Shown piece after piece: positions 997-27,267 of a DNA stretch of 45,639 nucleotides. The notes under the pieces are model-generated. The model had not been told where the DNA came from and did not search any database. It was given only the letters and a program-made list of their open reading frames with translations. The stretch lies in NCBI GenBank assembly GCA_000697055.1, contig JNDT01002404.1:1-45639 (forward strand), in the 5' to 3' direction. Numbering within the stretch: the stretch's first letter is position 1; each line of letters begins with the position of its first letter. Made by a program: the position numbers and the translations under genes. The DNA comes from Saksenaea vasiformis B4078. Taxonomy: Eukaryota; Mucoromycota; Mucoromycetes; Mucorales; Saksenaeaceae.

Positions 997-1566
997 ATGA
1001 CAGAGCAGTTCGTCGGATATGCAGGACTTCGGCCTCTTGTTAGAGACGACAAAGAAACACATCTAAAATCATTCGATTTTGAGCCACGTCTACTTGACGA
1101 AGAAGAGGTTGGGATTGTCGTAGCTGCGTGTGGAATGTAAAATTCAAAGCTCTCCCGTTTATCTGCTTAACAAAATTACTAGCTCTGATTCCGATATTTA
1201 TCCACTGACTGGCGTATGTATATATATGTGCGCGTTTATGTTGAATCCAGGTAACTGACAACCAACTTTACTGCTCTTCCCTTTTAGGTTTGGAAACGAA
1301 GCTACATACCCACTAATCCCGGGCCATCAGTTCATTGGAAAGATTACTGCTGTTGGCTCGGCTGTAAAAAAAAGAAAAAAAAATTAAAACTAGGCGACTG
1401 TGTTTGTGTGAGCCTGTTTGTCACAGTTGTGGCCAATGCACTTACGGTAAATCCGAGTTTGATCAGCTGTGTGCAAAGTGGTGACATACGATGGCGTATA
1501 TAAGAATTTCGTACATACGGGGTATAAAGCAAGTGTAGGTTCCTACGACAAATCTGTTGCAAGCTG
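997..1566 (+). pseudogene. Zinc-dependent alcohol dehydrogenase (ADH6/ADH7-like), decayed
   Basis: Three pieces of a medium-chain zinc alcohol dehydrogenase lie in order but not in one frame. The first (997-1138) reads EEEVGIVVAACGM, the start of the GroES-like domain. After about 150 nt a second piece from 1289 reads YPLIPGHQFIGKITAVGS, in which the usual GHE zinc-ligand motif is GHQ. It runs into an A-rich stretch and a stop near 1385. After a further frame change, CHSCGQCTYGKSEF and LCAK give the four-Cys structural-zinc lobe, followed by VVTYDGVYKNFVHT and then stop codons at 1564-1566. The CGSD catalytic segment and the whole Rossmann domain are missing. The family is clear from these motifs. 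Frame changes, missing parts and position beside Fanzor sequences indicate a dead copy. Confidence 0.75.
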
Positions 1567-1911
1567 ATCTTAAAGTCTATTGTATGCATATCTAATCGTA
1601 CTATTTCGCGAATATACCTGCTCCTAGTTTCGAAAAACAGGTATTTTCGCTGGGTCTCTGTGGGAAAAAAACTTTTTGATTGAAATGTCTGCTTACATGG
1701 AAACTGCGCCTTAAATTAATTTAAAAGACGTTGTATAATATGTGAAGGAGCGAATTGTCGACGGCAGAGCCTCTACAAACATCTATGGCTCTTACCAATA
1801 TGGGGGCTCCGTGACCATGTCTGTAGCCCTGAAATCCCCGATTGTTAGACCATTTACGGAAATCAGACCCAGTCCTTTACCTGTCATACAAAGTGACGAG
1901 TGAGCAGTTCC
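1567..1911. other. 3' flank of the Fanzor gene
   Basis: No protein-coding signal is seen. This stretch lies directly downstream of the Fanzor stop codon (minus strand 1914-1912). In TnpB and several Fanzor loci the guide RNA is read from DNA adjoining the gene, so this is one place to look for it. A short inverted pair TACCTG/CAGGTA lies near 1616-1643. Nothing further can be claimed from sequence alone. Confidence 0.4.
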
Positions 1912-4900
1912 TTACTGCCTAACTGTCCTGGACAGTGCTGCCGGGCGAGATGCTAACTGACATCCTGATTCGATGTAACGAACAAATATATCACGAATAT
2001 TTCGGCCGGCATTAACATCTCTGTTCCAAAACTAATCAAATAGTTAAGTATCAACGTGTCAACCCAAGCAGTCCGGCTTACTAGAGATGTTCTGATTCCT
2101 CGTCTATCATATGCGCACTGAGGGCACAGTCGGATAGGATAGACAATATTTCTGTAATTGTTGCGAGCTATTCCTATGTTAAAGAAAAATGTACATAAGC
2201 TGGACTAAGTCATACCGGGTCGGCGTCTATTGGGGCATTCACTGCTTAGATGCAGAATCTGCTCGTCGTCACCTAAGCAATATTGACGTTTGTGCTTATG
2301 ATGCTGGCGTCTGATATACTTTTTGCTAGAGATTAATGCATATGAGTCAGGTTTCCACTGTGTCCATTTGTTTCCCAAACATACCGATGATTACACAGTT
2401 GCATGTTATAGTCACGGAAATCGACTGTGTCGTGATGACAGATGCTGCATACTTTGCTGGTTTTGTACTCGTCTACGCATATGACTGGACATCGCTGTGC
2501 TAGCACCTCGCAAAAGGTCTACATGGATAGTAAATGTTAATAGGATTCTCACTACCAAGAGAACTTCAACACCCTCACCTTCACCGGTAACGGTGCATAC
2601 GTCTTGTAGCCTCCACTATGCAGGTCGACATCTCTGTATGCCACAAATGCCCGGCGCTGGCCACGTCTACTGTTTTGTGCCTCACGATGTTGACGACGTT
2701 GGCGATACCGCGCTTTTTTGTTCTGTTTTTGCACATTTGCGACCGGAGGCTGATGCAGAGAGATAATTAATGAACGAAGAATAAGCAGGCAAATGCTCAC
2801 CAGGGTTGAATTGGGATAAAATCCCCCGATCTGGTCTGCGATAACGTCCATGGTCATACTTCTGGAAGAGCCCTGCAAGGCACGCCTTTCCCTGTGTCTG
2901 TAATGACGGTTGAACTCATCCGTTCTGGGAAAGTCCATTCAATATGACCACATATTGACAAGAACATTCTGTAGCTACCTCTGTTTTTCGCTGAATTGTA
3001 CCGTGAGAAAGCGCTGGAATTCCGGAACAGATGAGGCCGTCTTAGGATGTTCCGAAAGACGATCGTAGACTTCCTGCATGTTGGCAATTTCACGATTTTT
3101 CCTTTCTATCTGAAGACTCCAGTTAAATTTGGAGCTGGATCTAAAAAAGCATGCAGTTATTGCACTGACTACATACAGGATCTTGTTCTTACTGGTAATA
3201 ACCGTTCGTGACAGAAAATGTATGGCTATTTCTTGCCTCTTCGTCATGAAGATCCTCCGCTGTGTCTACGGCGGTCACAAGGGAACGAATACCTACGAAA
3301 TACATATATAGCCTTTGTTAGATTCTTCATAGCAAGGAGCATACCAGGATCGATTCCCACGATGCGAGTTCTTTCAGGGTCTAAATGGCGTGCGACCGTT
3401 AAGCCCGTGGGCTCCTTCTTCAAATGATAGATGCCACACTGCAAATCAGAGAAATCCCTGTTACGAGGAAGGAACTGAAAGTCTCTCTGGGAGGACGGAT
3501 AAGATGCTGAAATGCAACCTTTCTGTTAGCGTGCTCCACGGTATAACAAAAACTGGACTGACCTTGGTTTGGTTTGCGAGATTTAAATCTGACTGCCACC
3601 ATAACACCATCCGTCTCAAAGCCATAATCAAACTCTACTTCTGGTAGCTCATCGTTGTTTATCCCTTATATGAACAAGTGTAAGGACATTACTTCCATGC
3701 AGTTGAATATGACCAAACCTTGTGCCCGGCGGCGGCGAGGCATGACTCTATCAAGACAAAAAATTGCTTCCCAAAGTTGTTCGCGGTATACCATGTCCTT
3801 GAGCGCATTATTGAAGGTATGAAAGCCTTGCAAAGGACCCTAACGTAAGAGTGTCAATTTTTCTTCGGTCAATTTATGCTTTTTTTTTTACGAGAACATA
3901 CTGCTAGATTTTCCGGGAGATTGGTAGTAATGTCTTTAAGCGCCCAGTAAAGTATTTTACCGGTGACGGGGAAGTAACCTAGTGTAGTATTATTGCTTAG
4001 CTCATATTATGGTTCAAGCAAGGTCACTAGGTTTCAGCTTACCTATCTGGTTTTTAGACATTGGAACGAGAGTCCAGCCTTTTCCATTGAGTTCATTTGT
4101 TTGCTTAAGCATCAATGCTGAGAGACGAAGCATACAGGGAAGCAACCGCTGGTTTTCATCATCACTGAGGTCTGCGGCTATATCTACATTGCCAAGGTTT
4201 TCCTGGTAAACATTCTGAAACTCTCTAGGAGGCACCCAACTGTAAGTAATCGTGAGGAAGAAACTACGTTAATATCGTTTCTTGTCATACCCATAAAAGA
4301 CTTCAAGGTCGGTGATTGAATCATCATCTAAAGTTGTCCATGCATTACGGTCAAAAAGTTCTTGTGCTGTTATTCCCTGGACATATCTGGATGCTACAAA
4401 TTTGAAGCAAGGCGATATCACGTAAACAATGTAAAGCAAATACATTAAGCAGTGGAGTAGTACCTAGGTTTCTCGCATCGTGTCGCTGATTTTGCGGGTG
4501 GTTCGCAAATAGTTCATCAAAAAAGGCGACGAAGGTTCGCTTCATATATATTTGAAGATTCGACGTGATGTGTAGGTATGTGTCTATAAATACGAAAAGT
4601 TTGTGTTTTCTTCTTCTCAAATAGTTCCACTTACTAGCAACTATTTTCCCCGCAAATGACGGGGCCAGCTCTCTTAACATGTATGTCAACGTGAGAAACC
4701 GGTAGTTTTATGCAGAAGTTATAAGTGTATTTGGCCTTACAAATTTACATGTATACCTTCTCCCGTCGCTGGGTTCATTCTGCAAGTATGAAAAAAGTTT
4801 TCGAAAGTCTGCCGTAGATCGACACACCAGCGGTAGTTTGACTATTGATCATGGGAGCAGATTTAGTTTATCCTGATAACTTCCTAACATCACTACGTAC

Positions 4901-5316
4901 AAACGCTACCCGAATGTTTGTGCTAGGATCTCGAGTCGGGATCATTTTAAACGCGGCAATAAAAAAGACTTCGTTATGGACAGGAGGAGAGGTCTCGAAC
5001 TGCCCATCGATCCAACGATGGATGTGCAAATTGACAAGCAACATTGCACACTGACAAGCGGTTGCGTACTGTTCTGCCACTGAACGAAAGACGCCCTATA
5101 TCAGCTTGTACTTAATATATTTGAAAGATTTTATATGAGAATTCCATAATACAGTACCCTGAGCTGCTTGTGGCTTCCCTGCAGAAAATTGCAAAGCTTC
5201 AATTTTCGAACAAATGAGTAGTCGCGACCAGGCAACTGCACGATGGGGGTGTTCTGGTACCCATACCGTCTCCTGCGGGCCGGGGGCTCTCCAACTTCGT
5301 TGTGTTGTCTATCCAT
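1912..5316 (-). CDS. Fanzor RNA-guided endonuclease, apparently complete, 19 exons, 774 aa
   Basis: complement(join(1912..2031, 2082..2173, 2216..2325, 2385..2518, 2579..2749, 2801..2924, 2979..3140, 3193..3292, 3345..3506, 3563..3664, 3719..3839, 3902..3933, 4043..4239, 4291..4393, 4464..4583, 4635..4670, 4757..4841, 4901..5095, 5158..5316)). All 18 introns are GT-AG and all phases agree, giving one frame without stops. Landmarks are TDG at 367-369, VVGIDPG-type RuvC-I with Asp436, VAYRD at 602-606, VDEYKTS with Glu640, zinc ribbon CSIC 647-650 and CPQC 721-724, and WNRDVNAGRNI with Asp740. This is the motif order of Fanzor proteins, eukaryotic relatives of TnpB that cut DNA guided by a noncoding RNA. 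The start is the first ATG of an open 53-codon exon. The acceptor of exon 4 (4670) is the least certain. No transposase gene is visible beside it. Identity as Fanzor is strong; activity is not shown. Confidence 0.88.
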
Positions 5317-5470
5317 GTTTTTGGGAATAAAAAGGAAGGGAGATTTGTTGTCAAATAGTTAGATGGAATATATGTGAACTCGTAGGACTGTTGTTTCGTT
5401 ATCCATGATGGGACGCTGCTAATAGGCTAACAGTTTTTGCACCTTGGTGTCTGCTGAGCCTTTCAGCAAG
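5317..5470. promoter_or_regulatory. Fanzor 5' flank up to the MULE-like element
   Basis: Upstream DNA of the Fanzor start codon. It is A/T-rich, with no ORF and no clear core-promoter motif. It ends at the 9-bp duplication TTCAGCAAG (5462-5470) that borders the inserted element. Confidence 0.35.
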
Positions 5471-5867
5471 GAGAATTGCTACGAACACTCAGATTCTGCC
5501 TCTTAGTGACACTCATGTAACATAATTTAGAGAACTGTTAAATAGGTAGCTTCGAATTCTCTATGAAATCTGATCGTACGCAAATATCAACGAGTTGTCA
5601 AGCCTCCGTGGATCGACTGCTTAGGCTTTGATAGATGAAGTGATGATATCTATTTGTAGGCGCTCGATGAGGGTTTAATTTACGGGCATTCAGCTCATGG
5701 GCGCTCATCTTGTGGACGCTAGCTGCACAAATACCTACGATTTGGTTTTTATTTGAGGATGGTCATACGTGCATTAAAATTCGGTAAGGTGTTTGTCCAG
5801 CCGCCGGCAAAAACACATTACATGAGTGTCCCTAAGAGGTAGATCCTGAGTATCCGTAGCAATTCCC
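5471..5867. mobile_element. Non-autonomous Mutator-like element (MITE), about 397 bp, with 9-bp target duplication
   Basis: Terminal inverted repeats of about 50 bp begin GAGAATTGCTACG on the left (from 5471) and, read on the opposite strand, GGGAATTGCTACG on the right (from 5867). By eye about 43 of 50 positions match. Both ends are flanked by the direct repeat TTCAGCAAG (5462-5470 and 5868-5876). Long terminal repeats with a 9-bp target duplication are the signature of Mutator-like elements. The interior has no transposase or other coding region, so it would need a helper element elsewhere. The repeat mismatches suggest an old insertion. Confidence 0.75.
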
Positions 5868-5876
5868 TTCAGCAAG

Positions 5877-6371
5877 GTATGGCCAGTGCAAACAGGCAGT
5901 TAACTTTGTAAATGATGACGTACTGACAGACAGCTACATTCAAATATACATACAAGTAACTATTATGATAAGCACAAGGGCAATCTGCCCAGAATTCTGC
6001 GATGGTGACCGAGAAATATTTTTCTACAACTTCCATATTGGTATCAATGGAAAATGATAAGAAGTGTCATTCTCTTTGTCATTGGGCCCTCTGGCCAGGG
6101 ACCCGTCATCCAGGCCATAAGGCCTTTTTTTGTTTTGAATATTTCGAATAGATAGGCTCAGGATCCAGAAGGCAGATTAGGCATGGGCAATACAACAACG
6201 TTAGATCAAGAGAATACTGATTATGCGTTTTTAAAAAACGCAATTGGCTTGTGCAACTCATATGTCAGCCTACCATCCATTTTACTGTCTCTAAAAATAT
6301 TTAACAGTAAAGAAACAAAGATTAGGAACCTCTATGCCTGTTAGATTCTTGTATACCATTAACGGTTGTCG
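5877..6371. other. Noncoding stretch right of the MULE-like element
   Basis: No recognised gene. It contains a small GC-rich palindromic patch (GGGCCCTCTGGCCAGGG and GGCCATAAGGCC near 6085-6125). It also holds a possible last exon of the small minus-strand ORF: a splice from 6383/6384 to about 6288 would extend that ORF to a stop at 6221-6223. Confidence 0.3.
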
Positions 6372-6608
6372 TTACGCCACTGGTGTGGTAGATTTCCTCA
6401 TTTCGCCACCCATTTTTTGCTGCAATTGCTGAAAACTGGCCTCAAAAAGATTTGCTACTACCTCGTCTTCTTCGAAAACCTCCTCTGAAACGTTGGCATC
6501 AACGGAAGCGAATACTTCTTCATGATGCATGTGGTCGTTGTGTTGCTGTTGCGGAGTGTTCATAGCTGACAGCAAGAAGCAAGCTTCCTTTTGGAACTCC
6601 GTCGCCAT
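6372..6608 (-). CDS. Small acidic protein of unknown function, 78 aa
   Basis: This is an ATG-started ORF that I do not recognise. It begins MATEFQKEACFLLSAM, has a Gln/His-rich stretch, then a strongly acidic segment (SEEVFEEDEVV) and an amphipathic segment NLFEASFQQLQQK, as expected of a helical binding peptide. A GTAACG donor inside the GTG-GCG codons near the end and a TTTTTAG acceptor about 95 nt later would replace the stop and add about 20 residues ending at 6221; I cannot decide between the two. Three copies of a 41-bp repeat lie just upstream of the ATG. It could be a real short gene or the 5' exon of one. Confidence 0.45.
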   Translation of the reverse strand: MATEFQKEACFLLSAMNTPQQQHNDHMHHEEVFASVDANVSEEVFEEDEVVANLFEASFQQLQQKMGGEMRKSTTPVA

Positions 6609-6613
6609 AGAAG

Positions 6614-6736
6614 TCCGAAGATTAACTGAGCGATTTTATTTGCTGTCTTTAACATCCGAAGATTAACTTGAGATATTCATTCGCTGATTTTTGATTCCGA
6701 AGATTAACTCGTCATTTTTATTGGCGCAGAATACCA
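6614..6736. repeat. 41-bp tandem repeat, three copies
   Basis: Units start at 6614, 6655 and 6696, each opening with TCCGAAGATTAACT and each 41 bp long; the later parts of the units have diverged. The array sits 6 bp upstream of the start codon of the small minus-strand ORF and about 190 bp upstream of the eL42 start codon. It could be promoter minisatellite sequence or repeated factor sites. Confidence 0.7.
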
Positions 6737-6923
6737 CGGACACCGCAGGCGAGCCAATATGGGCGCTTCCGTCGGATAATGAAAATTTCCGTGCTTCAAG
6801 CATGGTCACGGAGCTAACAATTTGATCTTCCGCCACCATGGCCTCGCGACGCCGGTGGTGGGTGGCGCGTAGGAAAAGGGAATCGGGATAAAGTACGGCT
6901 CTCTCTCTCGTTCGCCGATCGCT

Positions 6924-7495
6924 ATGGTAAATATTACGATTCCAATACGAGATGGATTAGAGACGGATTAGAGATGGATGGATGGATAGATGACAGTAAC
7001 CACGCGGGATATTTTAGTCGAAAATAGTTTAACATTATTCATGGGGGACAAAATTGTGGATCATGGGATGCAGCCATGACAATGCTAGCAGAATAGTCGA
7101 ATTGATATCCATTACCTTTGTTTAGGTTAACATCCCCAAAACCAGAAACACCTTCTGCAAGGGCACCAAGTGCAAGAAGCACACTCCCCACAAGGTCACC
7201 CAGTACAAGGCTGGTAAGGCCTCGCTCTTCGCTCAGGGTAAGAGACGTTACGATCGTAAGCAGTCCGGTTATGGTGGTCAGACCAAGCCCGTCTTCCACA
7301 AGAAAGTACGTTAAAGAGGAGAGAGAAAAATATGCAAACCGTTGACCATGATTATAGGCCAAGACAACCAAGAAGATTGTGCTCCGTCTTGAATGTACTG
7401 TCTGCAAGTACAAGATGCAGCTTCCTATCAAGCGTTGCAAGCACTTCGAATTGGGTGGTGACAAGAAGACCAAGGGTGCTGCTCTTGTTTTCTAA
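6924..7495 (+). CDS. RPL42: 60S ribosomal protein eL42 (L36a/L44), 106 aa
   Basis: join(6924..6926, 7126..7305, 7358..7495). The first coding exon is only the ATG, followed by a GTAAAT donor and a 199-nt intron ending TTTAG. The protein then reads [13 protein letters not shown], with [38 protein letters not shown] and the C-terminal KGAALVF. At 106 residues it has exactly the family length. It is a component of the large ribosomal subunit near the E site, with a four-Cys zinc site. Residue 56 is Pro, the form associated with cycloheximide sensitivity in yeasts. An AATAAA lies at 7519-7524. The gene converges on STN1 with 58 bp between the stop codons. Identification is certain; the ATG-only exon rests on phase agreement and the lack of any other suitable ATG. 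Confidence 0.95.
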
Positions 7496-24796: not shown

Positions 24797-27267
24797 ATGA
24801 CCAGAGAAAGGTATAATCAGACAATTTTAGGAAAGACGCTCTACGAAAAAGTGAGTTCGAGTCACGTACTTCTCGTTGGTGCAGGTGGTATCGGATGCGA
24901 ATTGTTGAAAAATCTTGTGTTATCAGGGTTTAAATCGATCCAAGTCGTACGTTTTTAGTATTCAATGGCTCCACAGCATGGTCTCTTGACGCGATTTAAG
25001 TAGATTGACTTGGATACGATCGATATTTCAAACTTGAATCGCCAATTTCTCTTTCAAAAACAACATGTCAAAAAAGCAAAAGCGCATGTAAAGTCTTTTT
25101 GTTGTCTTGCTTCTTTTCTCATCTAAACACCATAGGTCGCCAAAGAGTCAGCTCTTAAATTCAACAAAGATGTCAATATTGCTTCACATCAAGCCAACAT
25201 TAAAGATCCTCAATTTAGCGTCGAATGGTTTAAGCAGTTCACACTAGTCTTTAATGCACTTGATAACTTGGGTAACAAAAGGAAAAAAATACTTTGCATG
25301 AAGCACGTGTTAATATGAGAGCAAAAAGACGCACGACGTCATGTCAATCAAATGTGCTTAGCTGCCAATGTGCCCTTGATTGAATCAGGTACCACTGGCT
25401 ATTTAGGCCAAGCCTATGTCATCCAAAAGGTGAAGCAAAAAAAGATGAAGGAAAAAGAGGAAAGAGTTGTAACCCAATTTCTTCTGCAGGATATTACCGA
25501 GTGCTTTGACTGTCAACCCAAACCGACACCGACCACCTTTCCTGTGTGCACGATTCGAAGCACGCCTAGCGCCCCCATTCATTGTATCGTGTGGGCGAAA
25601 AGTTATTTGTTTAGGTTCGTTTGCATGTCTCTGTTGCATTAAGGAAAATAACATGGAAAATGTATGTAGTCAGCTATTCGGTAATTCAGAAGAGGAAGAT
25701 GCGTTGGAAGCAAATGCTTCGGAAGATAATGGTGAGATATGCTTGTTATACGAAGTATCTTAATGAAGAGATCTTTAGCAAAGGAACTGGAAGCACTTGC
25801 GCGAGAAGCAGAGGAGTTGAAGACAATCAAGGCAGCTGTCGGCACAGAAGAGTATGCAAGATTAGTATTTGAAAAGGTAAACTACGATAAGCCTATGCAC
25901 ACACAGCCCATGTTAAAAAAATTATGTAGGTTTTTGTTTCTGACATCAATCGTTTGTTGGCAATGAAAGAGATGTGGAAGCATCGGTCTCCTCCGACGCC
26001 CTTGGACTATGATTCGATTGAGATTGAAGCAGAAATTGAACTGAGCAATAGGGAAGAAAATGGAGGATCGGCCACAACGGGACTGACAGATCAGAATGTC
26101 TGGCCGCTGTGGCAGTCGTTTGACATTTTCAGGGATAGGTAAATACAACAGGATGGAATGTTCGCGCCGGGACTAAACCACCAAAAAGCTTGAACCGTCT
26201 TTCCGGACGGCTACTTGCTCTTCAGCAAGGAAACAAAGATGCTGCCTTATCATTCGATAAGGACGATGAGGATGCAATGGATTTCGTCACAGCAACAGCC
26301 AACATGAGAGCTCATGTTTTTGGTATTGACGAAAAAAGCCGCTTCGATGTCAAATGTACGCCATGATTTCCTTAAATTTTGTTTTCTTACAACTTTTTGC
26401 AGCCATGGCTGGGAATATTATCCCTGCTATTGCTACCACGAATGCTATTATTGCTGGCGTCGTGGTGATGAAGGCATTTGCGGTGTTGAATGGAGAAACG
26501 AGTACCGTCAAAAGAGTAAGGGCACAAGAAGAATGTTAGTTAGGAGCTGATACGATAAATTCACGACATAGACCTATCTTACCACGGTTTCACCTGCACG
26601 CTCGCATTTGCTGATGAATGAGGCCCCATCGGGACCAAATCCTGAATGCGGTGTCTGTTGTGCAACAAGTGCGACACTCAAAGTAGATTTTGAGCGGGCA
26701 ACGCTGCGAGACCTGATGGACAAGGTCATTAAGGTAACAATCGAAGATGGCGGTGCTGGTATGACCGAAGACGTTGCCATCATGGAAGGAAATAGGTAAA
26801 AAGAAAAAAAGATCCAGTCGATCGATCCTTGCTAGAGGTTCATTCTTGAAATTAGGATCGTTTATGACATTGATTTGGAAGAAAATCTGGATTTGTTGAT
26901 GAAAGACCTTGGTATTCGTGATGGTTCTATCTTGCGTGTGTCGCCAGACGAAGGAAAAGAAGTTGACTTTGTTGTGCAGTCGTTGTAAGTGTAGAAAAAA
27001 AAAACGTTCCTGGATTGTGGGTCGTACTGACGGATTGGCAGTTCGGCAAATGACGCGATGGATCCTGCTGTGCGACTTTCCAGCCCGATGCCCAAATTAA
27101 GTTATACGAATGTTACTGCAAGTTTAAAGCGTGAGCGCGAGGAGCATGAGGAGCCAGCAGCCAAAAAGGCAAAATTGCGCCAGGATGAGGCGATTGAGGC
27201 ACCTGCGGAGAATGAAACGATTGAAGTGAAGGATGACAAGAGCGATGGTGTTATTCTGATAGATTAG
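24797..27267 (+). CDS. UBA2: SUMO-activating enzyme subunit UBA2, 607 aa, 13 exons
   Basis: join(24797..24946, 25004..25087, 25136..25271, 25329..25429, 25490..25614, 25670..25731, 25779..25876, 25930..26138, 26189..26355, 26403..26515, 26572..26795, 26856..26984, 27042..27267). With AOS1 it adenylates SUMO and carries it as a thioester before transfer to UBC9. Visible landmarks are the nucleotide-binding [13 protein letters not shown] (from 28), DNLDARRHVN, zinc ligands CFDC (162/165) and CGVC (441/444), the catalytic Cys177 in [20 protein letters not shown], a ubiquitin-like domain from about residue 450, and a basic C-terminal [17 protein letters not shown], probably nuclear targeting. Introns are 48-75 nt; all phases agree. 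The intron at 25430-25489 is a multiple of three without stops, so its retention would add 20 residues. The start is the ATG of [12 protein letters not shown]. Confidence 0.95.

Follow-up and report, generated by a model that had tools for sequence, protein, structure and literature searches.

A multi-copy transposable element of Saksenaea vasiformis with a predicted intron-rich Fanzor gene and a candidate omega RNA

Introduction

SPu-1 of Spizellomyces punctatus, the element that encodes SpuFz1, is a multi-copy element with inverted ends, which carries a Fanzor1-type gene as its sole gene and a conserved RNA at its right end, while no transposase was found inside it (PMC3627910, PMC10432273). 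Both SpuFz1 (PMC10432273) and the SfAV Fanzor1 (PMC10711439) are reported to have an RNA at the right end, whose guide measures about 15 nt. Two fingerprints mark Fanzor proteins, the DPG of RuvC-I and a glutamate that precedes the zinc ribbon by six residues, and both are also carried by some cyanobacterial TnpBs (PMC10711439). Additionally, the Bao-Jurka motif describes Fanzor proteins as D-X(125,275)-[TS][TS]XX-C4 finger-X(5,50)-RD, and residues G500 and E536 of SPu-1 are reported as extremely conserved in Fanzor1 (PMC3627910).

The stretch of DNA analysed here, referred to as the window, comprises 45,639 nucleotides of contig JNDT01002404.1 of Saksenaea vasiformis B4078. With a probability of roughly 80%, its positions 1805-6755 hold one copy of a multi-copy Fanzor transposable element with a likely RNA-guided nuclease, and, as far as its sequence can tell, this element resembles SPu-1 in being multi-copy, in its inverted ends, in a Fanzor gene, probably of Fanzor1 type, as the only selected gene found and in the lack of a transposase found inside it, with a candidate counterpart of the conserved right-end RNA. 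Nothing on this Fanzor element appeared among the best-ranked titles of a literature search.

Structure of the Fanzor gene

The gene model was derived by dynamic programming over an alignment of the gene region from 15 copies in the same genome, the window among them and C643a entering without its 5' end, with an exon search that rewarded synonymous change and conserved GT/AG. The model scored 251 in the sense direction, 36 in antisense and at most 6.1 across 10 column shuffles. On the minus strand, the predicted coding span extends from 5316 to 1912 and encodes 779 residues in 19 exons, separated by 18 GT-AG introns of 47-103 bp. Exons 1-5 are placed at 5316-5158, 5095-4889, 4841-4741, 4672-4635 and 4583-4464; exons 6-10 at 4360-4291, 4224-4043, 3978-3902, 3839-3719 and 3664-3563; exons 11-15 at 3506-3345, 3292-3193, 3134-2979, 2924-2801 and 2749-2579; and exons 16-19 at 2518-2385, 2325-2216, 2167-2082 and 2031-1912.

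Barring any single splice site cost between 0.05 and 17 score units, and introns 2, 3, 5, 12, 13, 15 and 17 have near-equal boundary alternatives (at most 1.3 score units) that alter few residues. Splice sites occupy matching places in the aligned copies, each being retained in 71-100% of them. The intron number is firm as a prediction, with splicing deduced from this conservation. A preliminary description had already proposed 19 exons and 18 GT-AG introns at 1912-5316, and the 15-copy model arrived at the identical coding span. The 774 residues first counted give way to 779, a difference that can be explained by the near-equal boundaries in seven introns. The long residence in the genome that had been suggested from the high intron number fits the introns at common positions across the aligned copies.

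Fanzor landmarks and relatives of the protein

All landmarks named in the preliminary description (TDG, DPG, VDEYKTS, CSIC/CPQC and NRDVN) are present in the 779-residue model, and only their numbering had to be revised. The aspartate of RuvC-I, formerly Asp436, is D445 within GIDPG (residues 443-447; codon at 3349-3351, minus strand); the glutamate of RuvC-II, formerly Glu640, is E647 within VDEYKTS (2468-2470, minus strand); and the aspartate of RuvC-III, formerly Asp740, is D745 within NRDVN (2017-2019, minus strand). FETDG lies at 374-378, CSIC at 654-657 and CPQC at 726-729. The DPG at 445-447 and E647, which the six residues YKTSKV separate from C654 of the zinc ribbon, reproduce the published fingerprint and thereby bear out the Fanzor identity first proposed. 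The Bao-Jurka motif is found as well, with 204 residues in its first spacer, TSKV, CSIC/CPQC and 14 residues ahead of RD. The two CxxC pairs of the zinc ribbon are separated by a 68-residue insertion (658-725), in which His and Arg are abundant and additional Cys occur, and which is far longer than the 12-18 residues of the regular expression given in PMC10711439.

On the spliced protein, the Pfam TNB profile (PF07282) aligned at the correct location with 21.5 bits, below its cut-off of 26.3, which is a score threshold and not a defining Fanzor trait. Profile-profile comparison matched a second Fanzor-like ORF in the genome with an E value of 2.3e-5 over RuvC-II, the zinc ribbon and RuvC-III, and the TNB domain of this partner reaches 56.8 bits. 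Solved Fanzor structures were matched neither by the sequence nor by the profile of the window protein, no NCBIfam family was matched, and the AlphaFold2 model of homologue P0001, with P0002 and the window exons as extra rows, had a pLDDT of 44.8, too poor for use. Among 5.8 billion proteins, searched by a method that needs shared short words, two relatives were found, namely P0001 from Fennellomyces sp. T-0311 (31% identity over 95% of the hand-drafted window protein) and P0002 from Zychaea mexicana (29% identity over 43%). By these comparisons, the window Fanzor belongs to a divergent branch with two distant database relatives. Furthermore, G612 and E647 of the family are 35 residues apart, compared with 36 in SPu-1, a comparison of spacing only, with Arg612 in the window copy; given this near-identical spacing, G612 is probably the counterpart of the conserved Fanzor1 glycine, G500 of SPu-1.

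The Fanzor-type zinc-ribbon family PF07282 has at least 137 matches in the 38.7-Mb, 666-contig assembly, in which the window is contig C656, and the hand-drafted window protein has 216 matches in the genome, mainly exon-sized. Some of the PF07282 matches lie in stop-free long frames (452 and 772 aa), and intron-rich and intron-poor Fanzors seem to coexist in this genome. Near the contig start, a second, different Fanzor C-terminal piece is located at 206-628 on the plus strand (PF07282, 37 bits), placing two Fanzors within 1.3 kb of each other; against solved structures this piece gave weak matches only, with E values of 0.012 or worse.

Ends, duplications and copy number of the element

Homology between copies begins at 1803/1804, where one or two G are common with the duplication, and ends near 6755; after allowing for the duplication, the element was placed at 1805-6755 (4951 bp, minus strand), with ends GGCTC...GAGCC. 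The 8-bp target-site duplication AATATGGG flanks it at 1797-1804 on the left and at 6756-6763 on the right. Reading outward, the ends are ACAGACATGGTCACGGAGCC and, in most copies, ACAGACACCGCAGGCGAGCC, and ACAGACA lies 13 bp inside both GGCTC/GAGCC ends, with ACGGACA on one side in the window. Exact 8-bp direct repeats, all different, are present in five of the seven copies with both ends, C633 and C458 being those without a duplication. The right end of C666 is short by 6 bp, the end of C363 reads GAGCT, and the 8-bp repeat of C478 is displaced by one base. Two pairs of half copies on separate contigs, C414/C294 and C360/C415, share 8-bp repeats, and we infer that each pair is a single insertion divided by the assembly. 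With up to three mismatches, the right end occurs 38 times and the left end 21 times in the genome, while the reversed control does not occur. As judged from the copies, the element has the inverted ends and fixed-length duplications of a cut-and-paste DNA transposon. The inverted repeat I2 (1806-1835/6785-6814) was rejected as the element's ends, its right arm lying outside the element.

A MITE of 396 bp, with 48-nt inverted ends (88%) and a 10-bp duplication TTCAGCAAGG, is nested in the element at 5472-5867; it is variably present among the copies, and C633 shows a clean empty site. Five MITE carriers (window, C363, C665, C626 and C666) have differing target duplications, which indicates that the element moved after the MITE arrived. 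In C665 and C666, the 5' MITE-bearing part is about 97% identical to the window and the gene part is far older (dS 0.17 and 0.30); both copies look recombined or gene-converted.

The Fanzor gene is the only gene under apparent selection found within 1805-6755. A 78-aa ORF upstream of it (6608-6372) was rejected as a second protein, with a pN/pS of 1.29 over all pairs among 14 matched sequences, and no other ORF of at least 120 aa was found in the element save one overlapping the Fanzor exons. Among candidate transposases, the hAT dimerisation domain has 50 matches in the genome, none of them within 5 kb of the listed element ends, and the IS1595 family has none; the KDZ family also has no match in the genome, a weak absence since none was found in the control genomes either.

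Selection on the family and the state of the window copy

Purifying selection on the Fanzor family is indicated by dN/dS values of 0.12-0.27 in 62 of 63 copy pairs, these being the pairs with at least one of six less broken copies out of 91 possible among 14, with C643a excluded. The preliminary description had considered selection or recent activity likely, which is supported for the family but not clearly for the window copy. The exceptional pair is that of the window and its nearest copy, C363, with a dN/dS of 0.94 and 27 nonsynonymous to 8 synonymous changes, a ratio near the neutral expectation (binomial P 0.84) and distinct from the 82:122 of the older pair C626-C633 (Fisher P 7e-5). On the window's own branch, the 13 nonsynonymous and 6 synonymous changes lie above the selected background (P 0.027) and are compatible both with neutrality (P 0.27) and with weak constraint. 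Judging by these substitutions, the window copy is drifting, with changes accumulating about as fast as expected under neutrality, and its failure may already have begun.

An unbroken reading frame and GT-AG borders at each of the 18 introns are found in five of the 15 aligned copies (window, C363, C626, C633 and C401); C665 has an open frame with two donors reading AT, and nine copies are frameshifted under the gene model. The correct junctions had been taken as a sign of selection or recent activity. The frame is indeed uninterrupted, but in this family it is no proof of an active enzyme, since C363, whose frame is also open, carries D745H at the third catalytic Asp. One or two donors each have changed from GT to AT in C665, C623, C585, C277 and C643a, a change that a bias towards G-to-A (C-to-T) mutation in repeats may explain.

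It is about an even chance that the window copy is a dead or dying relic, whose frame is open only through recent insertion and whose protein is already inactive. Besides the near-neutral ratio against C363 and the frameshifts in nine of the 15 copies, this reading draws on 11 private residues of the window at positions where the other copies are fixed or nearly so, among them G612R, A614V, R633C and K634E ahead of RuvC-II. Codon 612 (2633-2635, minus strand) encodes Arg in the window and Gly in the other 14 aligned copies as well as in P0001. However, the window copy keeps the three catalytic residues, the zinc-ribbon cysteines and 18 of 18 splice sites, the changes on its own branch reject neither neutrality nor weak constraint, and the loss of activity through G612R is itself something that we infer.

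Candidate omega RNA at the right end

At the right end of the element, positions 1805-1950 on the minus strand form a predicted scaffold with hairpins at 1936-1922, 1918-1904 (with the stop codon inside) and 1897-1883, followed by a terminal hairpin at 1828-1805. From an alignment of eight sequences, five of them from more divergent copies, RNAalifold recovered all four hairpins unaided, and in three of the pairs both partners had changed. A manually written structure had 88.7% of its cells paired, a proportion that fell to 25-37.5% after sliding by 1-3 columns. Its covariation score was equalled in none of 500 shuffles, while three doubly changed pairs as such are not unusual, being found in 72 of 500.

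Across 23 copies, mean pairwise divergence is 4.9, 9.6 and 7.9% in the three parts of the 3' region and 5.3% in the last 60 nt of the coding sequence. Introns 17 and 18 diverge more than the 3' region, by 19 and 17%, and exons 17, 18 and the first half of 19 by 7-8%, so that conservation of the 3' region roughly equals, and does not exceed, that of these exons. Synonymous change amounts to 0.102 over the last 14 codons and to 0.306 over the preceding 26, and 6 of 110 sliding windows of the same 14-codon length have a lower value. Rfam contains no family that matches the right-end RNA, and RNA copies without the gene were sought and not established. Taken together, the four hairpins and three compensated pairs point to a candidate omega RNA.

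That the hairpins are instead DNA-level transposase sites or a product of coding constraint, with no guide RNA involved, seems unlikely. The terminal hairpin does share sequence with the inverted repeat, coding sequence extends over hairpin 1 and part of hairpin 2, and the window's right-end RNA folded alone is no better than its shuffles (z -0.04). Yet hairpin 3 is noncoding and shows an A-U to G-C double change in two of the eight rows, and the hairpins and their spacing are retained where the rest of the 3' region has diverged.

Target sites and neighbouring genes

A one-sided target motif lies beyond the right duplication, reading TCGGATAATGAA in the window (6772-6783, plus strand) and GCGGAGnTTnAA in the family. 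In 18 right flanks, G occurs at +8 in 15, C at +18 in 13, G at +19 in 13 and G at +20 in 17; further out, G is found at +22 in 11, T at +24 and +25 in 10 and 12, and A at +27 and +28 in 11 and 13. C478, whose GCGG lies one base farther out, was excluded from this count. The best six columns carry 5.3 bits, compared with a maximum of 2.57 in 2000 within-flank shuffles, and 20 left flanks showed no comparable motif, save a G adjoining the element in 18 of them. By manual count, an exact CTCCG stands 16-18 bp from the left end at 8 of 17 exact left-end matches, three of these eight sites being independent of the motif discovery set. The motif lies 9-14 bp outside the duplication and so does not occupy the position that a TAM has in SPu-1; we read it as a transposase preference or a promoter landmark.

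By manual reading, seven of 12 right flanks (window, C363, C666, C458, C399, C224 and C240) hold a gene directed away from the element, with its start at a distance of about 84-197 bp. A binomial estimate that assumes a 4% background, for a reading made post hoc, gives 1e-7 for seven of 12 and 6e-5 for five of 12. Such a nearby outward start was not seen at C665, C626, C633, C415 or C294, where in the case of C294 a DUF5917 gene is aimed towards the element about 450 bp away. The Pfam scan covered nine of the 22 flank ORFs and the eL42 of the window, leaving out those of C626, C633 and C415; L44 (window), ThiS, Proteasome, Aminotran_1_2 and G-alpha exceeded the cut-off, the flank ORF of C363 fell below it (20.2 against 27), and that of C458 had no Pfam match. 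By eye, the left flanks of C632 and C626 also seem to hold nearby gene starts.

In the window, the gene for ribosomal protein eL42 is located at 6924-7494 on the plus strand, with Pfam L44 on one exon. An intron separates its start codon, placed by eye, from the rest of the coding sequence; this codon is 169 bp away from the element end, with the element upstream and head to head. On the other side, 1000-1480 (plus strand) holds an apparently broken remnant that by eye resembles the N-terminus of an alcohol dehydrogenase. Targeting of tRNA genes was rejected, with no tRNA gene in 11 loci, and so was GCGGAG as a common promoter word, with 14 matches in the window against 12.9 expected. A near-match to GCGGAG at 27205 lies inside an apparent coding sequence (by eye).

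Tn7 and CAST elements recognise a site and insert at a set spacing from it. That the present element is likewise site-directed, reading GCGGAGnTTnAA, inserting about 16 bp away in one orientation and often at promoters, with the Fanzor and its RNA helping to choose or keep the site, is an improbable proposition, in which the landmark GCGGAGnTTnAA is seen as similar to the element's own right end (ACGGAGCC). Very improbable is a Fanzor that the host has recruited for a role of its own, unconnected with the transposon. Strong purifying selection and 18 introns would suit it, but the selection spans dispersed copies with different duplications, single copies decay, and no fixed host gene is apparent among the 15 aligned copies.

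Proposed mechanism

In the preferred reading, that of a multi-copy Fanzor transposable element, the Fanzor protein would likely bind the predicted omega RNA from the element's right end and serve as a DNA nuclease guided by it. This RNA would comprise three hairpins, the terminal hairpin and then flanking DNA, with the guide matching the occupied site, a layout modelled on SpuFz1 and the SfAV Fanzor1. Cutting of the empty site could then lead to repair that restores the element, resulting in its retention in the genome. As the element yielded no further gene under selection, movement would likely be driven in trans by an enzyme that would leave 8-bp duplications and prefer GCGGAGnTTnAA on one side. 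The dN/dS values suggest selection while copies multiply and drift after insertion, and the window copy would represent the drifting stage, in which the predicted frame and catalytic triad are intact and 11 private residue changes are present.

The genome offers dozens of element ends and copies that differ in age, with paralogues that are intact, drifting or dead, as well as a candidate for the right-end RNA and a target signature that is sharp and confined to one side. Such copies allow a test of whether Fanzor aids retention, targeting or neither in eukaryotic transposons. Additionally, a divergent, intron-rich branch barely linked by sequence search suggests that surveys may undercount Fanzors in early-diverging fungi.

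Comparison with known systems

Alongside the shared features, SpuFz1 differs in having a single open frame, about 2.1 kb and putative TA duplications, compared with 18 predicted introns, 4.95 kb and 8-bp duplications in the window (PMC3627910, PMC10432273). By our own reading, the CATA TAM of SpuFz1 matches the conserved CA and TA at its left end, whereas the window motif is not beside the end. The Fanzor1 elements of Mucor, Rhizopus and Phycomyces (MCi, ROr and PBl; PMC3627910) come from the same fungal group by nearest proteins. Like the window element, MCi-4, ROr-4 and PBl-3 carry a Fanzor without their own transposase, but they are MuDR-like with 9-bp duplications, while MCi-2 has duplications of 11-12 bp and MCi-5 of 6 bp; within the parts of PMC3627910 consulted, none of the MCi, ROr and PBl elements combines 8-bp duplications with a one-sided motif.

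Multi-exon Fanzor1 genes are also known from CRe-1/2/3 of Chlamydomonas, where five or ten exons are supported by ESTs, although these elements have Helitron-type ends and the window gene has 19 predicted exons (PMC3627910). ESvi-1B, an IS4-type Fanzor1 element, shares perfect 8-bp duplications with the window, yet it is a single copy, encodes an IS4-type transposase and has 18-bp inverted repeats (PMC3627910). Finally, the SfAV Fanzor1 is virus-borne, with 4-bp TTAN duplications and an RNA that was sequenced there and is predicted here, but its right-end RNA, like that of the window, has a predicted fold of three stems, in which both the inverted repeat and the duplication take part (PMC10711439, PMC3627910).
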